Source: a virus. Taken from it: DNA of 41,859 nt. Shown one piece after another: positions 1 through 41,859 of this stretch (position 1 is the first letter of the stretch; each line of letters starts with the position of its first letter). Location: positions 1 through 41,859 of the IMG/VR virus record IMGVR_UViG_3300033142_000988. One strand, 5' to 3'. A model generated the notes under the pieces. It was not told where the DNA came from, made no database searches, and saw only the letters and a list, made by a program, of their open reading frames with translations. Made by a program: the position numbers and the translations under genes.

Positions 1-72
1 ACACCCAACGAGTCCGCGATTTGCGAAAATATAAAGAATTGTGAATTTTACCGTGAAGATAAGGTTAATTAA
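1..72 (+). CDS. 3' end of origin-spanning small cysteine-rich protein (copy 2)
   Basis: This open frame enters from the contig end. Joined at the 30-base terminal overlap, codons from 41707 continue here and stop with TAA at 70-72, giving a 64-residue protein. The part unique to this end adds a cysteine (KNCEF) and a short charged tail (REDKVN). The full product has a CPTC pair near residue 15 and later cysteines in CENIKNC, which suggests a small zinc-binding protein. No function is recognised. Copy 1 at 39265-39414 stops before the last cysteine. The join itself is inferred from the overlap. Confidence 0.6.
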   Translation, partial: TPNESAICENIKNCEFYREDKVN

Positions 73-78
73 TTTAGA

Positions 79-114
79 TTTAAGATTGATGATTGTATAA
101 TTCAATATAACAAA
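79..114 (+). repeat. 36-bp exact direct repeat carrying a promoter (copy A)
   Basis: These 36 bases are identical to 39410-39445. They contain the ATTGTATAAT promoter core (93-102) and the start of the leader, and precede the gene at 126 as the other copy precedes the IbrB-like gene at 39462. Both copies lie just downstream of a copy of the small cysteine-rich gene, so gene plus promoter appear to have been duplicated together. Confidence 0.85.
93..102 (+). promoter_or_regulatory. promoter core ATTGTATAAT
   Basis: A -10-like element followed by an A/T-rich leader and AAGGAGTTA before the ATG at 126. The same core and leader pattern stands before at least six other genes or gene pairs in this genome. 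No clear -35 box is visible. Confidence 0.6.
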
Positions 115-125
115 AGGAGTTATAG

Positions 126-221
126 ATGAAAGAAATAAGTTTAGATGAATTAAGAGAACTAATGCAAAACGATAGCGAAACAAAAGCAAGATGTGAGAAG
201 TTTTTAAGTGGGGAAAAGTAA
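126..221 (+). CDS. 31-aa hypothetical protein
   Basis: First gene behind the promoter at 93-102, with a good AAGGAG ribosome site at 114-119. The product is a small, charged, probably helical peptide with no recognised family. Its TAA stop overlaps the ATG of the next gene at 221, so the two are probably translationally coupled. The promoter, ribosome site and coupling support a real gene despite its size. Confidence 0.55.
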   Translation: MKEISLDELRELMQNDSETKARCEKFLSGEK

Positions 222-430
222 TGGAAGATTGTGCAAATACATCAGCATTAAACAAAATGTTAAATGAGCAAGAGTTTGACGAAAAAGCGAAAGAAAACTT
301 TTTAGAAGAAATTGATCCAATTATTAATGAACTTTCAGAAGCAATAGAAAAAATAAAAGAAATTGCAAAAGATTATCAAGGCTATAATTTTTCAGAAGAT
401 ATTAAAGAAATTGTATCGGAATTAGTATGA
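221..430 (+). CDS. hypothetical acidic helical protein (69 aa)
   Basis: Acidic (rich in Glu and Asp) and predicted by eye to be mostly alpha-helical, with a heptad-like stretch around residues 35-60. No family recognised. It starts inside the stop of the 31-residue gene and ends in an ATGA overlap with the gene at 427, which fits a tightly coupled early operon. A GGGGAA ribosome site precedes the ATG. Confidence 0.65.
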   Translation: MEDCANTSALNKMLNEQEFDEKAKENFLEEIDPIINELSEAIEKIKEIAKDYQGYNFSEDIKEIVSELV

Positions 431-28869: not shown

Positions 28870-29389
28870 TTTGATGATTATTATAACCACCGCTATTCTG
28901 TTGCTGTTGTTGCTGATTTGGTTGGTTATATTGTTGCTGTTGTTGATTGTTATTATAATTTTGTTGTTGCTGTTGTGGCTGATTATAATTATTACCGCCT
29001 TGATTTTGTTGTTGTTGTGGAGCGTTATAGTTTTGCTGTTGTTGACTATCTTGCTGATTATCTTGTTTCTTATCTATAAAAGTAAAGTTTTGTAATTTGA
29101 TTATTACTCTGCTTCTATTTTCTCCGCTATCTGTTTTCCATTGTTGCTGCTCAAGCTCCCCACTAATTCCAATCATCGAACCCTTATTAAAAAAAGTGTT
29201 TACATTTTCAGCCGTATTTCCAAATGCTGTTACATCGAACCATGAAGTCTTTTCAACTTTCTCATTTGTGTTTTTATCTTTGTAATCTTGGTTAACTGCA
29301 ATACTGAAATTTGCAACTGCTGAACCACTTGCAAGATATTTCAACTCTATTTCTTTTCCAATTCTACCTATAATATTTAAACTATTCAC
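28862..29389 (-). CDS. ssb: single-stranded DNA-binding protein
   Basis: Coats single-stranded DNA in replication and recombination. The N-terminal 110 residues are a normal OB-fold SSB domain (NSLNIIGRIGKEIELKYL at the start, KTSWFDVTAFGNTAENV near 50-65, then a conserved SMIGISGELEQQQW). A linker of about 60 residues is almost only Gln, Asn, Tyr and Gly, encoded by CAA/CAG/AAT repeats. As read, it ends NNHQNA without the acidic tip, which lies just downstream in another frame. The start overlaps the end of the NinG-like gene. Confidence 0.92.
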   Translation of the reverse strand: MNSLNIIGRIGKEIELKYLASGSAVANFSIAVNQDYKDKNTNEKVEKTSWFDVTAFGNTAENVNTFFNKGSMIGISGELEQQQWKTDSGENRSRVIIKLQNFTFIDKKQDNQQDSQQQQNYNAPQQQQNQGGNNYNQPQQQQQNYNNNQQQQQYNQPNQQQQQQNSGGYNNHQNA

Positions 29390-30008
29390 TTTCTAATTCC
29401 TTTATTTTTAAATTGTAAGTATGGATTATATTTTTATAATCTTCTACACTATATTTTTTTGGCTCTTTACTTTTAGAAAGTAGTTCCAACTCCTCGACCT
29501 TTTCTAAACCTATCTTATTAATCAATCTAGGACGATATTCGACTAAATTTCCCGATAGATGTGTATTGCATTGCTGACAACTTTTATGTACGTTATCTTC
29601 ATTAAAGCGTAATCCTTTAGCTTTCCCTACACTCATAAAATGTGAAGCGTGAGCTTGTCTTTGATGATTATTTTCATTCCAAATATAATCACATGATATA
29701 CAAGGTTCGTTTATATCTCTTAATCTAACAAATTTATTAAATACTTGTTGAGCTTTACCCATTTGAAAAGACTTATCTTTATCTTTAAAATCTTTTAGCT
29801 TTTTATTTTGTTCTTTTATTGTTCTCTTTTTGCCATCATTAACTAAAGTATCTAAGTTCTTATCAATATACATAACTTCACACGCATAATCGCAACATGG
29901 TTGCATCTCTCGAGTAGGTACGAAAAGTTGACCGCATTCTTTACACTTTTTTCTACGTGGCTCTTTATTCTTTTTCGTTTGGTCTGCTTTGCTTATTCCT
30001 AAACTCAT
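29382..30008 (-). CDS. ninG: NinG/Rap-like recombination protein (208 aa)
   Basis: Lambda NinG (Rap) resolves recombination intermediates. The N-terminal zinc-ribbon (KKCKECGQLFVPTREMQPCCDYAC) and the C-terminal HNH-like region (CISCDYIWNEN, AHASHFMSVG, HKSCQQCNTHLSGN) match this family well. I prefer the ATG at 30008, which overlaps the stop of a tiny upstream gene (ATGA). An in-frame start at 30059 with AAAAGG upstream would add 17 residues. It belongs to the recombination operon with SSB and the annealing protein. Confidence 0.85.
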   Translation of the reverse strand: MSLGISKADQTKKNKEPRRKKCKECGQLFVPTREMQPCCDYACEVMYIDKNLDTLVNDGKKRTIKEQNKKLKDFKDKDKSFQMGKAQQVFNKFVRLRDINEPCISCDYIWNENNHQRQAHASHFMSVGKAKGLRFNEDNVHKSCQQCNTHLSGNLVEYRPRLINKIGLEKVEELELLSKSKEPKKYSVEDYKNIIHTYNLKIKELESE

Positions 30009-30085
30009 TTTAAAACTTCTATTAAAACTTCCACAACGTGAAACCCTACGATAAACCATAACGCGACCTTTTCATAATTATTCAT
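30005..30085 (-). CDS. 26-aa hydrophobic peptide
   Basis: Preceded by a very good AAAGGAG ribosome site. The peptide (NNYEKVALWFIVGFHVVEVLIEVLK) looks like one short transmembrane or amphipathic helix. Its TGA overlaps the preferred NinG start. It may exist mainly to couple translation. It is too small to be certain. Confidence 0.4.
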   Translation of the reverse strand: MNNYEKVALWFIVGFHVVEVLIEVLK

Positions 30086-30514: not shown

Positions 30515-30928
30515 TTAACTAAATCTTACTATTTCCATTTGTAACTGCTCATTAGATACAGATACAAAGTCCCTTAATGCTACATCGATAAACTTTTGAT
30601 AAATATCTTCAAATTCTATAGCATCCATTGTTGAAAAATCCATACTTTTCGGTATATAGATAATTCCTTGTTTTTGTGTTATATGCTCAGAATACCAACC
30701 ACATTTTAACTTTAATTCTGTTCTTAAATCTTCCATATTGCTGTACTTGTCTTGATTCTGATATACAACTTTCAACATTGCAAACATCTTTTTATGAAAC
30801 TGATAATTTCTTTTAGGCTTGTATTCCATTAAGAAGCTATCATTATTCGCAATCTTTTTTAGTTTCTTTTTGGCTTCATCATCAGGCTCTAATAAACCAT
30901 TAGGAAGCATTTTAAAACCTAAGAGCAT
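30515..30928 (-). CDS. DUF1367-like phage protein (137 aa)
   Basis: The middle and C-terminal pattern (KPKRNYQFHKKMFAMLKVVYQNQDKY, then LKLKCGWY and PKSMDFSTMDAIEFEDIYQKFIDV) fits DUF1367, a family found near recombination genes of lambdoid and other phages. Its role is unknown but probably linked to DNA recombination. It overlaps the previous gene by ten bases. The ribosome site is weak, consistent with coupling. Confidence 0.7.
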   Translation of the reverse strand: MLLGFKMLPNGLLEPDDEAKKKLKKIANNDSFLMEYKPKRNYQFHKKMFAMLKVVYQNQDKYSNMEDLRTELKLKCGWYSEHITQKQGIIYIPKSMDFSTMDAIEFEDIYQKFIDVALRDFVSVSNEQLQMEIVRFS

Positions 30929-36299: not shown

Positions 36300-36652
36300 T
36301 GATACTTCAACACATAGACACTTACAAAATAGAATGCACAGTACTTGGAACATTTCTAAATACTCCAGAACTCATAGGATTCAATACAGAGCCTTTTAAG
36401 ATGGAATCTAAGTATTTCGCTAATGATTTTAATAAATTGATTTGTGAGCGACTTATGAAAGAATTAGAGCATAGCGGAAGCCCTAGCTTATTAGAAATAA
36501 AATTAAGTGCATGGGTACGAGATGTTAAAATAAAATATCAACAAGCTTATTCAAATATTACAACATCAAAACCAATACCAATGAGCGTTGCAAAAAAATA
36601 TTATGAAGAAATGAAAATACAATACATGGAAAGGTTAGCAAATGGAAGATAG
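36299..36652 (+). CDS. possible DnaB N-terminal-like replication protein (117 aa)
   Basis: Begins with a helical pattern (YKIECTVLGTFLNTPELIGF) that recalls the N-terminal domain of DnaB-type helicases, which contacts primase. It lies between initiator and helicase genes, overlapping both neighbours. No ATPase motifs are present. It may be a helicase loader or a split helicase domain. Weak assignment. Confidence 0.45.
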   Translation: MILQHIDTYKIECTVLGTFLNTPELIGFNTEPFKMESKYFANDFNKLICERLMKELEHSGSPSLLEIKLSAWVRDVKIKYQQAYSNITTSKPIPMSVAKKYYEEMKIQYMERLANGR

Positions 36653-37172
36653 AGATTATGTAGGAATAAATAGAGAAAACAATATATATGCAGTCATTGG
36701 AAGAGAAGAGATTCAATCAGAGCCATGGAATAAAAAAATAGAACATGACTATGTGAACACATTCCCAAAAGAATTAGCATTTATATCTATAAGCGACCCG
36801 AAAAAGCCTTTTATTAAAACTAATAATCATTTTGATAGTGAATTATTTATGAAGTTTTGGGACGTGGAAGAAGAAGATGGAAAATATTGTCCTATTCATA
36901 TTACTCAAGCAAAAGAGATATATGATTTTATATATAAAAATAGAAACAAAGAGTTTCTTGTTAATTGCGAAGCTGGAGTAAGTAGAAGTGCTGGAATAGG
37001 AATGGCAATAGAGTTTTTACTAAGAGATAAAAAAGAGTTTCCTAAATGGTCTCACTTCCCAAGTAAGATAATACAACATTGGAGATACTCCCCAAATATG
37101 AATGTTTTTAATTCAATTATTAGTTTTGAAACAACAGAAAAGTATTTTGCATCAAAAGGAGGGTGGAGTTAA
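36642..37172 (+). CDS. CX5R protein phosphatase-like protein (176 aa)
   Basis: The active-site loop NCEAGVSRSAG (Cys109, Arg115) is the CX5R signature of tyrosine and dual-specificity phosphatases, preceded by a strand (KEFLV) and followed by a helix as in the family. Asp74 (KFWDVEEED) could be the general acid. Such proteins remove phosphate from proteins, RNA 5' ends or lipids. The substrate here is unknown. It is embedded between replication genes. The start overlaps the previous gene by 11 bases, with AAAGG upstream. Confidence 0.7.
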   Translation: MEDRDYVGINRENNIYAVIGREEIQSEPWNKKIEHDYVNTFPKELAFISISDPKKPFIKTNNHFDSELFMKFWDVEEEDGKYCPIHITQAKEIYDFIYKNRNKEFLVNCEAGVSRSAGIGMAIEFLLRDKKEFPKWSHFPSKIIQHWRYSPNMNVFNSIISFETTEKYFASKGGWS

Positions 37173-38179
37173 TGGAAAATAGAAAACAAATACTAATAGA
37201 CAAATTAGAAAGCGATATAAAAGAAAAGAAAACCATTTTAAAAGAAATTCAAGGAGAATATAAAACTACTAAATTATTCGCACCTAAAAACATTAGAGAG
37301 ATTAAAGGCTTGAATCTTGAAGTAGTAGGACTTAATTATATACCTTTCATCAAAGGAGCATATAACATTCTAACTGGGCGAGGTGGTTCGGGAAAATCTG
37401 CAATTGCTTTAAAAAGTATGATTATGTATTTATCAGTTAATCCTAACAAAACAGGATTAGCTTTTTTTACAGAAGATGGAAAAGACGATATTACTTCACG
37501 ATTAGAAATGATTTGTCGAGGGGAAAATATAGACAGCAACGATATTATAAACCGTGTACATTTCATAACAGTTGAAAATGACGACCGTATCAAGTGGGCG
37601 AAAACTTCAAGAGATGGCTATCAAGTAGAAAATATTTATATAAATGAAGTAATAGAATTCTCAAAAAGTCAAAACGTAGGATTTATTATTATTGATCCTC
37701 TAAAAAGATTTCATTCATTAAGTGAAAATTCAAATGATGATATGGACGTTTTAGTAAGAGATGTATTCGTAGATATGGCAGTTAAAACAGAAGCGGTTTT
37801 ATTAGTATTACATCATAGTTCAAAGAGTGGAGAAAGTGGAGCATCAAGGGGAGCTTCAACAATTAGTGATAGTGCAAGATTAGGTTGGAGTATCGGAAAG
37901 TATTATATTAGAAATGAAAAGTCTGGGGAAGTTGTTATTGATGAATCAAAAAGAAATAAAATTAAGTTATCGATTATAAAAGATAATCAAGGATTAGAGG
38001 GCAAATGTGCGATTCGTGATGTATCTGACAATTCAATACCTAATCCTTTAAGCGGTTTTATTGGTGGGTATAATAGCAATAAAGAACCAGAAAAAACTAC
38101 ATATAACTATGTAGAAAACACAAATAATATAATAGATGATGCACCGGTAAAAGATGTAGATATACCGGATATATTTTAA
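37172..38179 (+). CDS. RepA/RecA-like replicative helicase (AAA_25 type, 335 aa)
   Basis: Hexameric helicase-type ATPase. Walker A GRGGSGKS is at residues 69-76, Walker B is FIIIDP near residue 172, and the conserved LHHSSKSGESGASRGASTISDSARLGW block (about 210-237) is typical of RepA-like helicases. I use the ATG at 37172 (TAATG overlap, AGGGTGGAG upstream) rather than a GTG at 37163. It completes the replication module. Confidence 0.85.
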   Translation: MENRKQILIDKLESDIKEKKTILKEIQGEYKTTKLFAPKNIREIKGLNLEVVGLNYIPFIKGAYNILTGRGGSGKSAIALKSMIMYLSVNPNKTGLAFFTEDGKDDITSRLEMICRGENIDSNDIINRVHFITVENDDRIKWAKTSRDGYQVENIYINEVIEFSKSQNVGFIIIDPLKRFHSLSENSNDDMDVLVRDVFVDMAVKTEAVLLVLHHSSKSGESGASRGASTISDSARLGWSIGKYYIRNEKSGEVVIDESKRNKIKLSIIKDNQGLEGKCAIRDVSDNSIPNPLSGFIGGYNSNKEPEKTTYNYVENTNNIIDDAPVKDVDIPDIF

Positions 38180-38191
38180 GGAGATAGAGAA

Positions 38192-39265
38192 ATGGAATTT
38201 AATTACAAATGGAATTTAAAAGATTTAGAAAAAGTTGAGAAAAATGGATATAAAGTATTTAGTTGTTTTGCAGGTGGTGGAGGAAGTAGTCAAGGTTACA
38301 AAATGGCTGGTTATGATGTAATTGGTAATAATGAAATTGATCCAAGACAAATGGAAATATATCAACATAATTTAAAGCCTAAGTTTAGTTATTTAGAAGA
38401 TATTAGAACTTTTAGGACCAGGGAAGATTTACCAAAAGAATTATTTGAGTTAGATATTTTAGATGCTTCGTTTCCTTGTAGTTTGTTTTCAACTTCTAAT
38501 GCAAAAGCTGATGATAAAAAAGGTAAAGAGGTAAAATTTAGAGAGGGTCAAGCAAAACAAACCTTAGATGATTTAGCTTTTGAAACTATTGCTTTAGTTG
38601 ACAAAATAAAACCTAAAATTTGTGTATTTGAAAATGTAAAAGGTTTACTACAAGAAAAGAACAAATGGTATGTAGAACAAATATACTCACAGTTTGACAA
38701 AATAGGCTATAGAATATGTCATCAATTAATAAATTGTGCTGACTTAGGAGTGCCACAGAGAAGAAAGAGAGTGTTTTTCTTTGCAGTAAGAAATGACATA
38801 GATGTACCGACTGCTGATATTTTTGGAACTGAACCTATGATAAAAATAGGGATAGACTCAAATCATATCCCGTTTAAAAATATTGAAGATTTAAGCGATA
38901 AAATAGGAATAGTTAAAAACCACAAAGCAGAATACAAATATTGGCAAAACTCAAAGCCGGGAGAATATTTCAGCAAGGCAACGTATAGAATGGACGGAGT
39001 AAAAAAGTTCTTCGATTACTATAAAATTAATAAAGAAAAAGTTTTAGGAACAATAACGGCACATATAAGAGGTGGTGGAGGAGCATATCATTACGAAGAA
39101 TACAGATGCTTAAATAGGCTAGAAGTTCTTAGAGGTAGTTCTTGGAGTTTAGACTATGACTTTTTAGAACAAAACCCTAAATATGTATGTGGAATGAGTG
39201 TACCACCTTTAGCAATGTATCGAATAAGTAAAGAAATCCAAACTCAATGGTTAGATAAAATCTAA
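38192..39265 (+). CDS. C5 cytosine DNA methyltransferase
   Basis: Transfers a methyl group from S-adenosylmethionine to cytosine C5 in DNA. Motif I FSCFAGGGGSS is at residues 23-33. The catalytic motif has FPCS with Cys96, where many enzymes have PPC. Motif VI FENV is at 146-149, and motif VIII VPQRRKRVFF at 187-196. A lysine-rich stretch follows the catalytic Cys. No cognate restriction enzyme is nearby, so it probably protects phage DNA or acts in regulation. The stop overlaps the small cysteine-rich gene (TAATG). Confidence 0.92.
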   Translation: MEFNYKWNLKDLEKVEKNGYKVFSCFAGGGGSSQGYKMAGYDVIGNNEIDPRQMEIYQHNLKPKFSYLEDIRTFRTREDLPKELFELDILDASFPCSLFSTSNAKADDKKGKEVKFREGQAKQTLDDLAFETIALVDKIKPKICVFENVKGLLQEKNKWYVEQIYSQFDKIGYRICHQLINCADLGVPQRRKRVFFFAVRNDIDVPTADIFGTEPMIKIGIDSNHIPFKNIEDLSDKIGIVKNHKAEYKYWQNSKPGEYFSKATYRMDGVKKFFDYYKINKEKVLGTITAHIRGGGGAYHYEEYRCLNRLEVLRGSSWSLDYDFLEQNPKYVCGMSVPPLAMYRISKEIQTQWLDKI

Positions 39266-39414
39266 TGGCAAAAGAAAAACCAAAAAAGTATTATAACTGC
39301 CCCACCTGCACCGAGAAAACCAACTTTCTCGGAACAGACCTATGCAGCTTACGAGTCCAGTCAATCGATGACCTGCAAACACCCAACGAGTCCGCGATTT
39401 GCGAAAATATTTAA
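39265..39414 (+). CDS. small cysteine-rich protein, copy 1 (49 aa)
   Basis: Overlaps the methyltransferase stop. It has a CPTC pair at residues 12-15 and single cysteines at 27 and 46, suggesting a zinc-binding fold. The DNA is clearly more GC-rich than its surroundings. 138 bases (39271-39408) recur at 41722-41859 with only two differences, both silent. This copy ends ENI, before the last cysteine of copy 2. No family recognised. The phage Mu Com zinc-finger regulator is a loose analogy only. Confidence 0.6.
   Translation: MAKEKPKKYYNCPTCTEKTNFLGTDLCSLRVQSIDDLQTPNESAICENI
39271..39408 (+). repeat. 138-bp direct repeat, copy 1
   Basis: Matches 41722-41859 at 136 of 138 positions. It is GC-richer than the rest of the genome and contains a perfect hairpin, CCGAGAAA/TTTCTCGG (39311-39332). 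It is followed by a 36-base promoter repeat also found at 79-114. The two copies bracket the IbrB-IbrA-like cassette. Confidence 0.95.
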
Positions 39415-39445
39415 GATTGATGATTGTATAATTCAATATAACAAA
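39410..39445 (+). repeat. 36-bp exact direct repeat carrying a promoter (copy B)
   Basis: Identical to 79-114. It contains the ATTGTATAAT core at 39423-39432 and the start of the leader, and is followed by AGGGAGTTAAG and the ATG of the IbrB-like gene at 39462. Confidence 0.85.
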
Positions 39446-39461
39446 TCAAAAGGGAGTTAAG

Positions 39462-40130
39462 ATGATAGAGACGTTAAGAATACAAGTAAAAGCAATGGTT
39501 AAGGTAATGGAGAGAGCAGAGCTTGATGAAAAGATAGACTGTATAAATATGATAAGAGAAGCAATACATGAAATTAGTCCATTTAAAAGTGAACCAGTAG
39601 ACTATGTAAAATGGGTTAAGAATGATACTGTAGGGGCAAACGAATACAATCCAAATAGTGTAGCACCTCCAGAAATGGAACTATTAAGACATTCAATTGC
39701 TAGTGATGGATTTACACAACCAATTGTAACTTGGTCACATTCGGACGTTGTAGAAAATGAAGTTATTGATGGATTCCATCGCCATAGAGTAGGAAAAGAA
39801 TGTTTAGATATTCAATCGCGAATACATGGTTATTTACCAATAGTTGCACTTCTTGAAGATAGAGAAGGCAAAAATGATAGAGTAGCATCTACAATTAGAC
39901 ACAATAGAGCAAGAGGAAAACATAGAGTTGAAGCAATGGCTGATATTGTTATGGATTTACATAAGCGTAATTGGAGTGATAAAAAAATAGCTAAAGAGTT
40001 AGGAATGGATCAAGATGAAGTATTAAGACTTTCACAAATTACAGGACTCTTGGAAGCATTTCAAGATTCAGAGTTTACAGAAGCGTGGGAAGCAGAAACT
40101 TTTGAAGAAGAACCGGAAAATGAAAATTAA
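39462..40130 (+). CDS. IbrB-like ParB-fold protein (222 aa)
   Basis: The motif VIDGFHRHRVGKE (residues 101-113) and RHNRARGKHRVEAMADIV (146-163), with a downstream helix-turn-helix (WSDKKIAKELGMDQDEVLRL), match the ParB-like IbrB family found beside IbrA in phages and genomic islands. IbrB and IbrA were named as regulators of immunoglobulin-binding proteins, but their biochemistry is not established. It lies behind its own promoter and AGGGAG site, and heads the three-gene cassette between the two 138-bp repeats. Confidence 0.8.
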   Translation: MIETLRIQVKAMVKVMERAELDEKIDCINMIREAIHEISPFKSEPVDYVKWVKNDTVGANEYNPNSVAPPEMELLRHSIASDGFTQPIVTWSHSDVVENEVIDGFHRHRVGKECLDIQSRIHGYLPIVALLEDREGKNDRVASTIRHNRARGKHRVEAMADIVMDLHKRNWSDKKIAKELGMDQDEVLRLSQITGLLEAFQDSEFTEAWEAETFEEEPENEN

Positions 40131-40518
40131 TCAAATATTCCACCACTTTAGCAAGTGGGAGGATTATAAATACGGATTTTATGACCTAAGCTGCATTGAT
40201 AGCAAAGAACATATAGAAAAAAGTGTAGAGTTACTCTCTAATCAAGAAGAATTTTATAAATATGCTAAAAAAGTAGTGCGTGAATGGGTTTATAGTTGTG
40301 AGCAAAATTTAACAGATAATTCAATAAATAAAATTGCTTATATAGGTCAAAGTGCTTGCTGTATGGCAAATAAAACACCAGCTTTTGTTACGCGTAACGC
40401 TTGGTGGTTTGTAGATGATGTAGATAAAGAGTTAGCAAACGAAACAGCAAGAAGAGTTTTAAAAGAGTGGAGAGCCACTCAAATAATGAAGGGGTCATTA
40501 TGGGAAAAATATTTATAG
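40120..40518 (+). CDS. hypothetical IbrAB-associated protein (132 aa)
   Basis: The ATG at 40120 overlaps the IbrB-like stop. A TTG-started longer form from 40102 is less likely. It contains IGQSACCMANKTPAFVTRNAWW (about residues 81-102), a conspicuous Cys- and Trp-containing segment, followed by a helical end. I do not recognise a named family. Its place between IbrB- and IbrA-like genes, with overlaps on both sides, argues that it works with them. Confidence 0.65.
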   Translation: MKINQIFHHFSKWEDYKYGFYDLSCIDSKEHIEKSVELLSNQEEFYKYAKKVVREWVYSCEQNLTDNSINKIAYIGQSACCMANKTPAFVTRNAWWFVDDVDKELANETARRVLKEWRATQIMKGSLWEKYL

Positions 40519-41714
40519 GCAAGAACGTAAACGAAGCAGCAGAAGAAAGAGTTAATTGGACTTTTGATAATTTCGAAAAAATATATTTAAGTTTTAGTGC
40601 TGGAAAAGATAGTACAGTAATGCTACATATGGTAGCACTTGAAGCAAGACGAAGAAATAGAAAAATTGGTTTATTATTAGTGGATTTAGAAGGTCAATAC
40701 AAATTAACAATAAATCACGCTGAAGAAATGATGGAAATATACAAAGATGTTTTAGAGGTTCATTGGGTGTGTCTTCCTTTGAGTCTTAGAAATGCAGTAT
40801 CAGTATATGAGCCACAATGGACTTGTTGGGATGAAAAGAAAAAAGACGATTGGATAAGAGAACCATATAAAAATGCAATCACAGACATTAATTTTTTTCC
40901 ATTCTTTAAATATAACATGGAGTTTGAAGATTTTGTTCCTTTATTTGGCGAATGGTATGCAGAAGGAAAAGAGTGTGCGTGCTTAGTTGGAATCCGAACA
41001 GATGAAAGCCTGAACAGATTTAGAACTATTGCCAGCACAAGCAAAGTTAAAAAAGATGATAAGCAATATACAACAAAAGTAACGGACACGGTTTATAATG
41101 TTTACCCTATCTATGATTTTAAAGTACAAGATATTTGGACTTATCACGCTAAAAATAGAGATTTAAGATATAACGAATTATACGAGCTTATGAATAAAGC
41201 TGGATTAAGTTTGTCATTACAGAGAATTTGTCAACCTTATGGAGACGATCAAAGAAGAGGGTTGTGGCTGTTTCATTTAATCGAGCCAAATACATGGGCG
41301 AAAGTAGTAGCAAGAGTAAGCGGTGCAAATAGTGGTAGTTTATATGTGCAAGAAAGCGGAAATATAAACGGATATAATAAAATAAAAAGACCTCCACATT
41401 TAACATGGAAGGAATTTGCAGAATTACTAATTGAATCAATGCCCCCACAAACAAAAGACCATTACAAAGTTAAAATAGGTACGTTTATTAAGTGGTGGAT
41501 TGAAAGAGGATATCCAGGGGGAATACCAGACGAAGCAGAACTAAGTCTAGAAATGAATAAGAAAGTGCCTTCATGGCGTAGAATCTGTAAAAGCTTATTA
41601 AGAAATGATTATTGGATGAAAGGGTTAAGTTTTACTCAACACAAAACAGATGCTTATAAAAAATATTTAGCCATGAAAAAAGAAAAACAATTTGATAAGG
41701 GTCTCTTTGATTAA
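40500..41714 (+). CDS. IbrA-like PAPS reductase-family protein with DUF3440 (404 aa)
   Basis: The PP-loop SFSAGKDSTVM (residues 31-41) is that of PAPS reductase-like enzymes, which activate or transfer sulfur via adenylylated intermediates. The C-terminal half (SLQRICQPYGDDQRRGLWLFHLIEPNTWAKVVARVSGANSG) matches DUF3440, the mark of IbrA. I place the start at 40500 after GAAGGGG. An in-frame start at 40467 would overlap the previous gene further. Together with the IbrB-like protein it may modify nucleic acid, but this is inference. Confidence 0.82.
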   Translation: MGKIFIGKNVNEAAEERVNWTFDNFEKIYLSFSAGKDSTVMLHMVALEARRRNRKIGLLLVDLEGQYKLTINHAEEMMEIYKDVLEVHWVCLPLSLRNAVSVYEPQWTCWDEKKKDDWIREPYKNAITDINFFPFFKYNMEFEDFVPLFGEWYAEGKECACLVGIRTDESLNRFRTIASTSKVKKDDKQYTTKVTDTVYNVYPIYDFKVQDIWTYHAKNRDLRYNELYELMNKAGLSLSLQRICQPYGDDQRRGLWLFHLIEPNTWAKVVARVSGANSGSLYVQESGNINGYNKIKRPPHLTWKEFAELLIESMPPQTKDHYKVKIGTFIKWWIERGYPGGIPDEAELSLEMNKKVPSWRRICKSLLRNDYWMKGLSFTQHKTDAYKKYLAMKKEKQFDKGLFD

Positions 41715-41859
41715 GAAGCCCAAAGAAAAACCAAAAAAATATTACAACTGCCCCACCTGCACCGAGAAAACCAACTTTCTCGGAACAGACCTATGCAGCT
41801 TACGAGTCCAGTCAATCGATGACCTGCAAACACCCAACGAGTCCGCGATTTGCGAAAAT
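41707..41859 (+). CDS. small cysteine-rich protein, copy 2 (5' part, continues at 31-72)
   Basis: Starts with TTG inside the end of the IbrA-like gene and reads to the contig end. If the ends are joined, it continues at position 31 to the stop at 72, giving 64 residues with cysteines at 15, 18, 30, 49 and 55. The shared part is nearly identical to copy 1 at 39265. Like copy 1, it is translationally coupled to an upstream modification-type gene. The TTG start is inferred. Confidence 0.55.
   Translation, partial: MIKKPKEKPKKYYNCPTCTEKTNFLGTDLCSLRVQSIDDLQTPNESAICEN
41722..41859 (+). repeat. 138-bp direct repeat, copy 2
   Basis: Second copy of 39271-39408 (two silent differences). It ends exactly at the contig end. 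Its last 30 bases are the terminal overlap repeated at 1-30. The hairpin CCGAGAAA/TTTCTCGG is at 41762-41783. Confidence 0.95.
41830..41859. other. 30-bp terminal overlap with 1-30
   Basis: The last 30 bases equal the first 30, as expected when a circular or circularly permuted genome is assembled as a linear contig. The overlap lies within the 138-bp repeat, so it does not by itself prove which repeat copy position 31 belongs to. Confidence 0.85.

Follow-up and report, generated by a model that had tools for sequence, protein, structure and literature searches.

A known source of mosaicism in phage genomes is relaxed homologous recombination by phage recombinases, which act on diverged homologies (PMC3945230, PMC2327257). 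Modification-type genes of phages include orphan C5-cytosine methyltransferases (phrog_116) and the IbrA/IbrB pair, a PAPS reductase-DUF3440 protein and a ParB-domain protein found together in many phages; a search of the literature on IbrA/IbrB found no tested biochemical role in phages. Small cysteine-rich proteins of unknown function are also encoded by phages.

The locus described here lies in a virus record of 41,859 nt (IMGVR_UViG_3300033142_000988), the whole of which was analysed and is referred to as the window. In it, the gene for a small cysteine protein (CP) and the promoter behind it (P) are present twice, on either side of a block made up of ibrB, an open reading frame (orf) and ibrA. 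This locus is best explained, with moderate confidence, as a recombination scar in the modular early region of a tailed phage, the result of ordinary phage mosaicism beside replication genes.

Genes of the locus

The features of the locus are as follows, in window coordinates.

37163-38179, plus strand: replicative helicase of the RepA/DnaB type, which anchors the variable site (Pfam AAA_25, 7.5e-16)
38192-39265, plus strand: C5-cytosine DNA methyltransferase, 357 aa (Pfam DNA_methylase, 2e-46; TIGR00675 above cut-off)
39265-39414, plus strand: CP1, truncated small cysteine protein, 49 aa, without the C-terminal C-x-[FWY] (ORF reading, alignment)
39271-39445, plus strand: first copy of the repeated unit, made up of the CP gene body and the promoter and shorter than copy 2 by a 47-nt deletion (alignment, direct repeats)
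39409-39445, plus strand: promoter copy P1, now before ibrB (identical to 78-114)
39462-40130, plus strand: IbrB-like ParB-domain protein, 222 aa (phrog_2159, 1.9e-66; Pfam ParB_N below cut-off)
40120-40518, plus strand: 132-aa protein, kept between ibrB and ibrA in relatives
40500-41714, plus strand: IbrA-like protein with PAPS-reductase domain and DUF3440, 404 aa (PF11922, 1.9e-30; PF01507, 6.3e-14; phrog_2302, 2.8e-83)
41707-41859, plus strand: 5' part of CP2, with a TTG start within the end of ibrA, continuing at 31-72 (alignment)
1-72, plus strand: 3' part of CP2; 1-30 repeat 41830-41859, and 31-72 are the C-terminus absent from CP1
78-114, plus strand: promoter copy P2, before the next operon (identical to 39409-39445)
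221-430, plus strand: downstream gene, with weak homologues after the CP gene in relatives L112 and L125 (tblastn, E 6e-4 and 8e-5)

The helicase has relatives at 83-88% identity in L008, L112 and L114; a search of GTDB genomes with it for prophages or hosts returned distant fragments only. A dual-specificity-phosphatase-like gene (36642-37172) lies between a DnaB N-domain-like gene and the helicase, and is missing at that position in L008. On the minus strand the window encodes NinG/Rap and NinB/Orf homologues (29382-30059 and 30515-30928), a lambda nin-like recombination set, and an exonuclease-like protein is encoded in the window as well.

The methyltransferase contains a full-length DNA_methylase domain (PF00145, 159 bits against a cut-off of 22; TIGR00675, 119 against 101) and is 71% identical to its counterpart in L008, which is trailed by a single CP gene. 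IbrA is assigned by both of its domains (PF11922, 106 against 25 bits; PF01507, 52.8 against 22.5), and IbrB by its PHROG match together with its position upstream of ibrA, the Pfam ParB_N score being 20.1 against a cut-off of 26.3. From these domains, it is inferred that the methyltransferase and IbrBA would act in DNA modification. The 132-aa protein has no match among PHROG families and none in Pfam that exceeds the cut-off; it is 47-79% identical in L005 and L033-L038, separates ibrB from ibrA in all close relatives that were checked, and may be a third component of the IbrB/IbrA system.

Assignment of IbrA as a DndC-type phosphorothioation enzyme was rejected (21 bits to DndC against a cut-off of 290), and PADLOC gave only partial hits, with no other dnd proteins among the five proteins tested. 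Because the match of IbrA to DndC is weak and partial, no phosphorothioation system is claimed. A transposon or integron cassette was likewise rejected, since there is no recombinase and the genes between the repeats are those for IbrB, the 132-aa protein and IbrA; the repeat that flanks this block is itself a protein gene with its promoter. The IbrB-orf-IbrA block is found without CP in L004 and L005, and would therefore appear to move separately from CP; in L005 it adjoins capsid-type genes, as judged by eye.

The duplicated CP-promoter unit

The two copies form a direct repeat of 138 nt (39271-39408 and 41722-41859) that is 99% identical and by far the longest in a search that covered direct repeats of the window, the next repeat families being of at most 50 nt with the longest at 84%. 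Two differences separate the copies, at 39288 (AAG/AAA) and 39294 (TAT/TAC), and the 116 nt after the second difference (39295-39410) are identical. The first-pass annotation had described just such a segment with two silent differences, each copy starting in the stop of a modification-type gene, and direct repeat search and alignment confirm both points: the ATG of CP1 lies in the methyltransferase stop (TAATG), and CP2 overlaps ibrA by 8 nt.

The same annotation had taken the small-protein gene to be duplicated and to be followed each time by the same 36-base promoter. P1 and P2 are indeed identical over 36-37 nt, but they are not a separate repeat: CP gene and downstream promoter align as a single duplicated unit, from which copy 1 lacks 47 nt (window 31-77). 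Promoter identity was dropped as independent evidence of modularity, because the promoter belongs to the same duplicated unit as CP. The repeat is real, but CP1 is a truncated gene rather than a second full copy. More specifically, the missing 47 nt encode the CP C-terminus and their deletion, at whose join there are 2 nt of microhomology, truncates CP1, which reaches its own stop at 39412-39414 without the C-terminus and the fourth conserved cysteine. CP1 retains the family N-terminus MAKEKPKK (compare MAKQKEKPKK in L008 and MAKEKPQK in L035), whereas CP2 has the family C-terminus and an altered N-terminus.

The 22-nt core of the promoter is a phage promoter consensus, TTGTATAATTCNNTATAACAAA, which is located at 93, 8784, 15589, 35006 and 39424 (up to 3 mismatches; 0.11 copies expected); among these five copies, identity over a long stretch is restricted to P1 and P2.

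The repeat was also said to be GC-richer than the genome, and it is, at 45% against 31% for the window, a value reached by about 0.4% of other 138-nt windows. GC3 is about 0.5 in the CP copies and about 0.2 in adjacent genes. The high GC content is, on comparison with relatives, a property of this CP allele, since CP has 30% GC in L008 and 22% in L006 (38% in L035), and it suggests that the allele came in from elsewhere, either ahead of the duplication or along with it.

Complete CP2 (64 aa) is read from TTG at 41707 across the record ends to the stop at 70-72, assuming that the circle is right. The last 30 nt of the record (41830-41859) equal the first 30 (1-30), which is weak evidence for a circle; because this overlap falls within the CP repeat, both circularity and the linkage of the repeats rest on assembly. 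Two coexisting phages, one with methyltransferase-CP-P and the other with P-ibrBA-CP, might thus have been joined by the assembler at their shared CP, so that the tandem would not exist on one molecule. That the record begins and ends within the repeat with an overlap of just 30 nt would fit such an artefact, as would the 116 identical nt, which are in reach of short-read k-mers. However, the copies differ in their flanks on both sides, at two silent sites and by 47 nt in length, the contig is continuous through P1-ibrB and ibrA-CP2, and both joins are natural ones, the methyltransferase-CP join occurring in L008 and the IbrA-CP join in L035. An origin in assembly is accordingly judged quite unlikely.

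The small cysteine protein family

CP homologues were found, one each, in six IMG/VR relatives (L006, L008, L035, L112, L115 and L125/G010), and in all six, as in CP1 and CP2, the gene overlaps the stop of the gene upstream. All members share three cysteines, and all except CP1 also have a fourth, located in C-x-[FWY] close to the C-terminus. The four-cysteine family as defined here (CxxC - C - C-x-[FWY], with overlap of the upstream stop) comprises the six relatives and CP2. CP probably binds zinc. Searches of phages (tblastn with four members), plasmids, IMG/VR and GTDB genomes revealed no CP beyond the related phages, and comparisons of the family with Pfam, PHROG and solved structures (PDB) gave chance-level matches only. 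Structure prediction (mean pLDDT 51, pTM 0.25) was too poor for a fold search.

The small protein had been proposed as a shared partner or regulator of DNA-modifying enzymes, which in its strict form would mean one copy per modification gene. CP does come after a C5 methyltransferase in L008 and after IbrA in L035, and in the window it comes after each of them; other small CxxC proteins overlap a methyltransferase stop in L020 and an IbrA stop in L033. Unrelated genes precede CP in the other four relatives (L006, L112, L115 and L125/G010), however, and the overlap with the upstream stop is universal; CP does not directly follow IbrA in L005 and L034 or the methyltransferase in L006, L017 and L018, and CP1 has lost its fourth conserved cysteine. 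This proposal was not supported by the comparison, and a functional partnership is now very improbable. Since a modification gene precedes CP in L008, L035 and the window and in none of the others, CP appears instead to be a resident small gene of the early region, which ends an early operon here and in several relatives.

The proteins of L020 (6068-6247) and L033 (6215-6400) are of a different kind, with two cysteine pairs, and a protein resembling them is encoded in L114 (8755-8943).

Downstream of CP there is a promoter-like non-coding region in L008, L112, L125 and the window, and another gene immediately in L006, L035 and L115. Synteny beyond this point is weakly indicated, its basis being the weak homology of the gene at 221-430.

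The variable site in related phages

In L008 (helicase 83%, methyltransferase 71% identical) the methyltransferase is followed by a single 54-aa CP, again with TAATG as the overlap, and then by a promoter-like region; IbrBA is absent from this methyltransferase-CP locus. L035 (helicase 58%, IbrA 78%) has the order helicase - ibrB - orf - ibrA - CP - second methyltransferase, with a CP of 53 aa that overlaps the ibrA stop as TAATGGC. The window thus contains the L008 and L035 arrangements in tandem.

More broadly, the helicase is adjoined by a C5 methyltransferase in L008 and L006, by IbrB-orf-IbrA in L035 and L033, by a 218-aa methyltransferase in L112 and by a 211-aa methyltransferase in L114. 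In L115 a 207-aa methyltransferase-like gene, assigned by its likeness to the 211-aa one of L114, lies upstream of the helicase. The modular locus suggested by the first-pass annotation is borne out by this variation among L008, L035, L112, L114 and L115. Because the neighbours of the helicase vary in this phage group, comparison argues for a site at which modification genes may be swapped.

Origin of the arrangement

The recombination scar would have begun with an ancestor of the order helicase - C5 methyltransferase - CP - P - next operon, which L008 retains. Recombination in CP/P with a relative that carried promoter - ibrB - orf - ibrA - CP, the order of L035, would then have joined the two orders, giving helicase - methyltransferase - CP1 - P1 - ibrB - orf - ibrA - CP2 - P2; on this proposal the CP-P unit is present twice around the block because of that recombination. 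The 47-nt deletion that removed the C-terminus of CP1 would have arisen when the join formed or shortly thereafter. Homologous recombination between the repeats would remove the block again and give back the L008 order. We infer both the event and its direction from such comparisons.

Several observations support this history. Aligned over CP and promoter, the copies show just one gap, of 47 nt, and the family N-terminus is kept in CP1 and the C-terminus in CP2. L008 may be seen as holding the methyltransferase-CP half and L035 the IbrA-CP half, and the finding of two CP genes in none of the CP-bearing relatives checked is consistent with a scar. Of the 138 nt, the opening 24 contain both differences between the copies (a chance of about 3% for two random sites, by a simple calculation), as expected from recombination or conversion within the gene. 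The recombination genes of the window (NinB/Orf and NinG/Rap homologues and the exonuclease-like protein) would fit as well. Against it, the exact parental sequence was not recovered from any phage, and the CPs of L008 and L035 share only about 50% and 33% identity with CP2; the record ends inside the repeat, so that the arrangement depends in part on how the assembler linked the copies; and a tandem duplication of CP-P with independent insertion of IbrBA would look much alike.

In the latter case, CP-P would have been duplicated within one genome, and illegitimate recombination would then have placed IbrB-orf-IbrA between the copies without a donor of the IbrA-CP order. The copies are near-identical in CP and P, as within-genome duplication would give, and the block is known without CP from L004 and L005. 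Yet CP stands at the ibrA stop independently in L035, which makes a donor with the IbrA-CP order likely, and insertion exactly between the ibrA stop and the first CP codons would be fortuitous. This course of events is considered unlikely.

Read as a recombination scar, the locus is a snapshot of a phage gaining a second modification-type gene set, in which a block was added beside an existing one, the shared gene was doubled and one copy is decaying. It marks the site next to the replicative helicase as a place of modification-gene turnover in this phage group. Phages within a population would differ in how their DNA is modified if recombination between the repeats continues. A further idea, which is speculative and rather improbable, is that the CP-promoter unit serves as a standing homology anchor for swapping DNA-modification blocks, such that a population holds methyltransferase, IbrBA or both and changes its modification quickly.

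Comparison with described systems

The mosaicism is ordinary, and the small CP protein family is without a name. As in phage mosaicism by relaxed homologous recombination (PMC3945230; PMC2327257), blocks appear to have been exchanged at short shared stretches, and the phage has recombination genes of its own; in contrast to it, a shared gene and promoter are left twice here, one copy being truncated. The IbrA/IbrB pair agrees with that of many phages in its domains and in the order ibrB to ibrA, and the proteins are 45-59% identical to the best phage proteins, one of which is annotated IbrA | IbrB, whereas here a conserved 132-aa gene lacking any family match lies in the middle of the block, and CP comes after the block. 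The methyltransferase resembles phage orphan C5 methyltransferases (phrog_116) in its complete C5 domain and is 45% identical to Flavobacterium phage methyltransferases, but it is trailed by the remnant of a CP gene. CP itself, with a CxxC and two more conserved cysteines in 53-64 aa, resembles other small phage proteins that are rich in cysteine and of unknown function, and differs from them in that searches of Pfam, PHROGs, PDB and collections of phages, plasmids and genomes gave no match.
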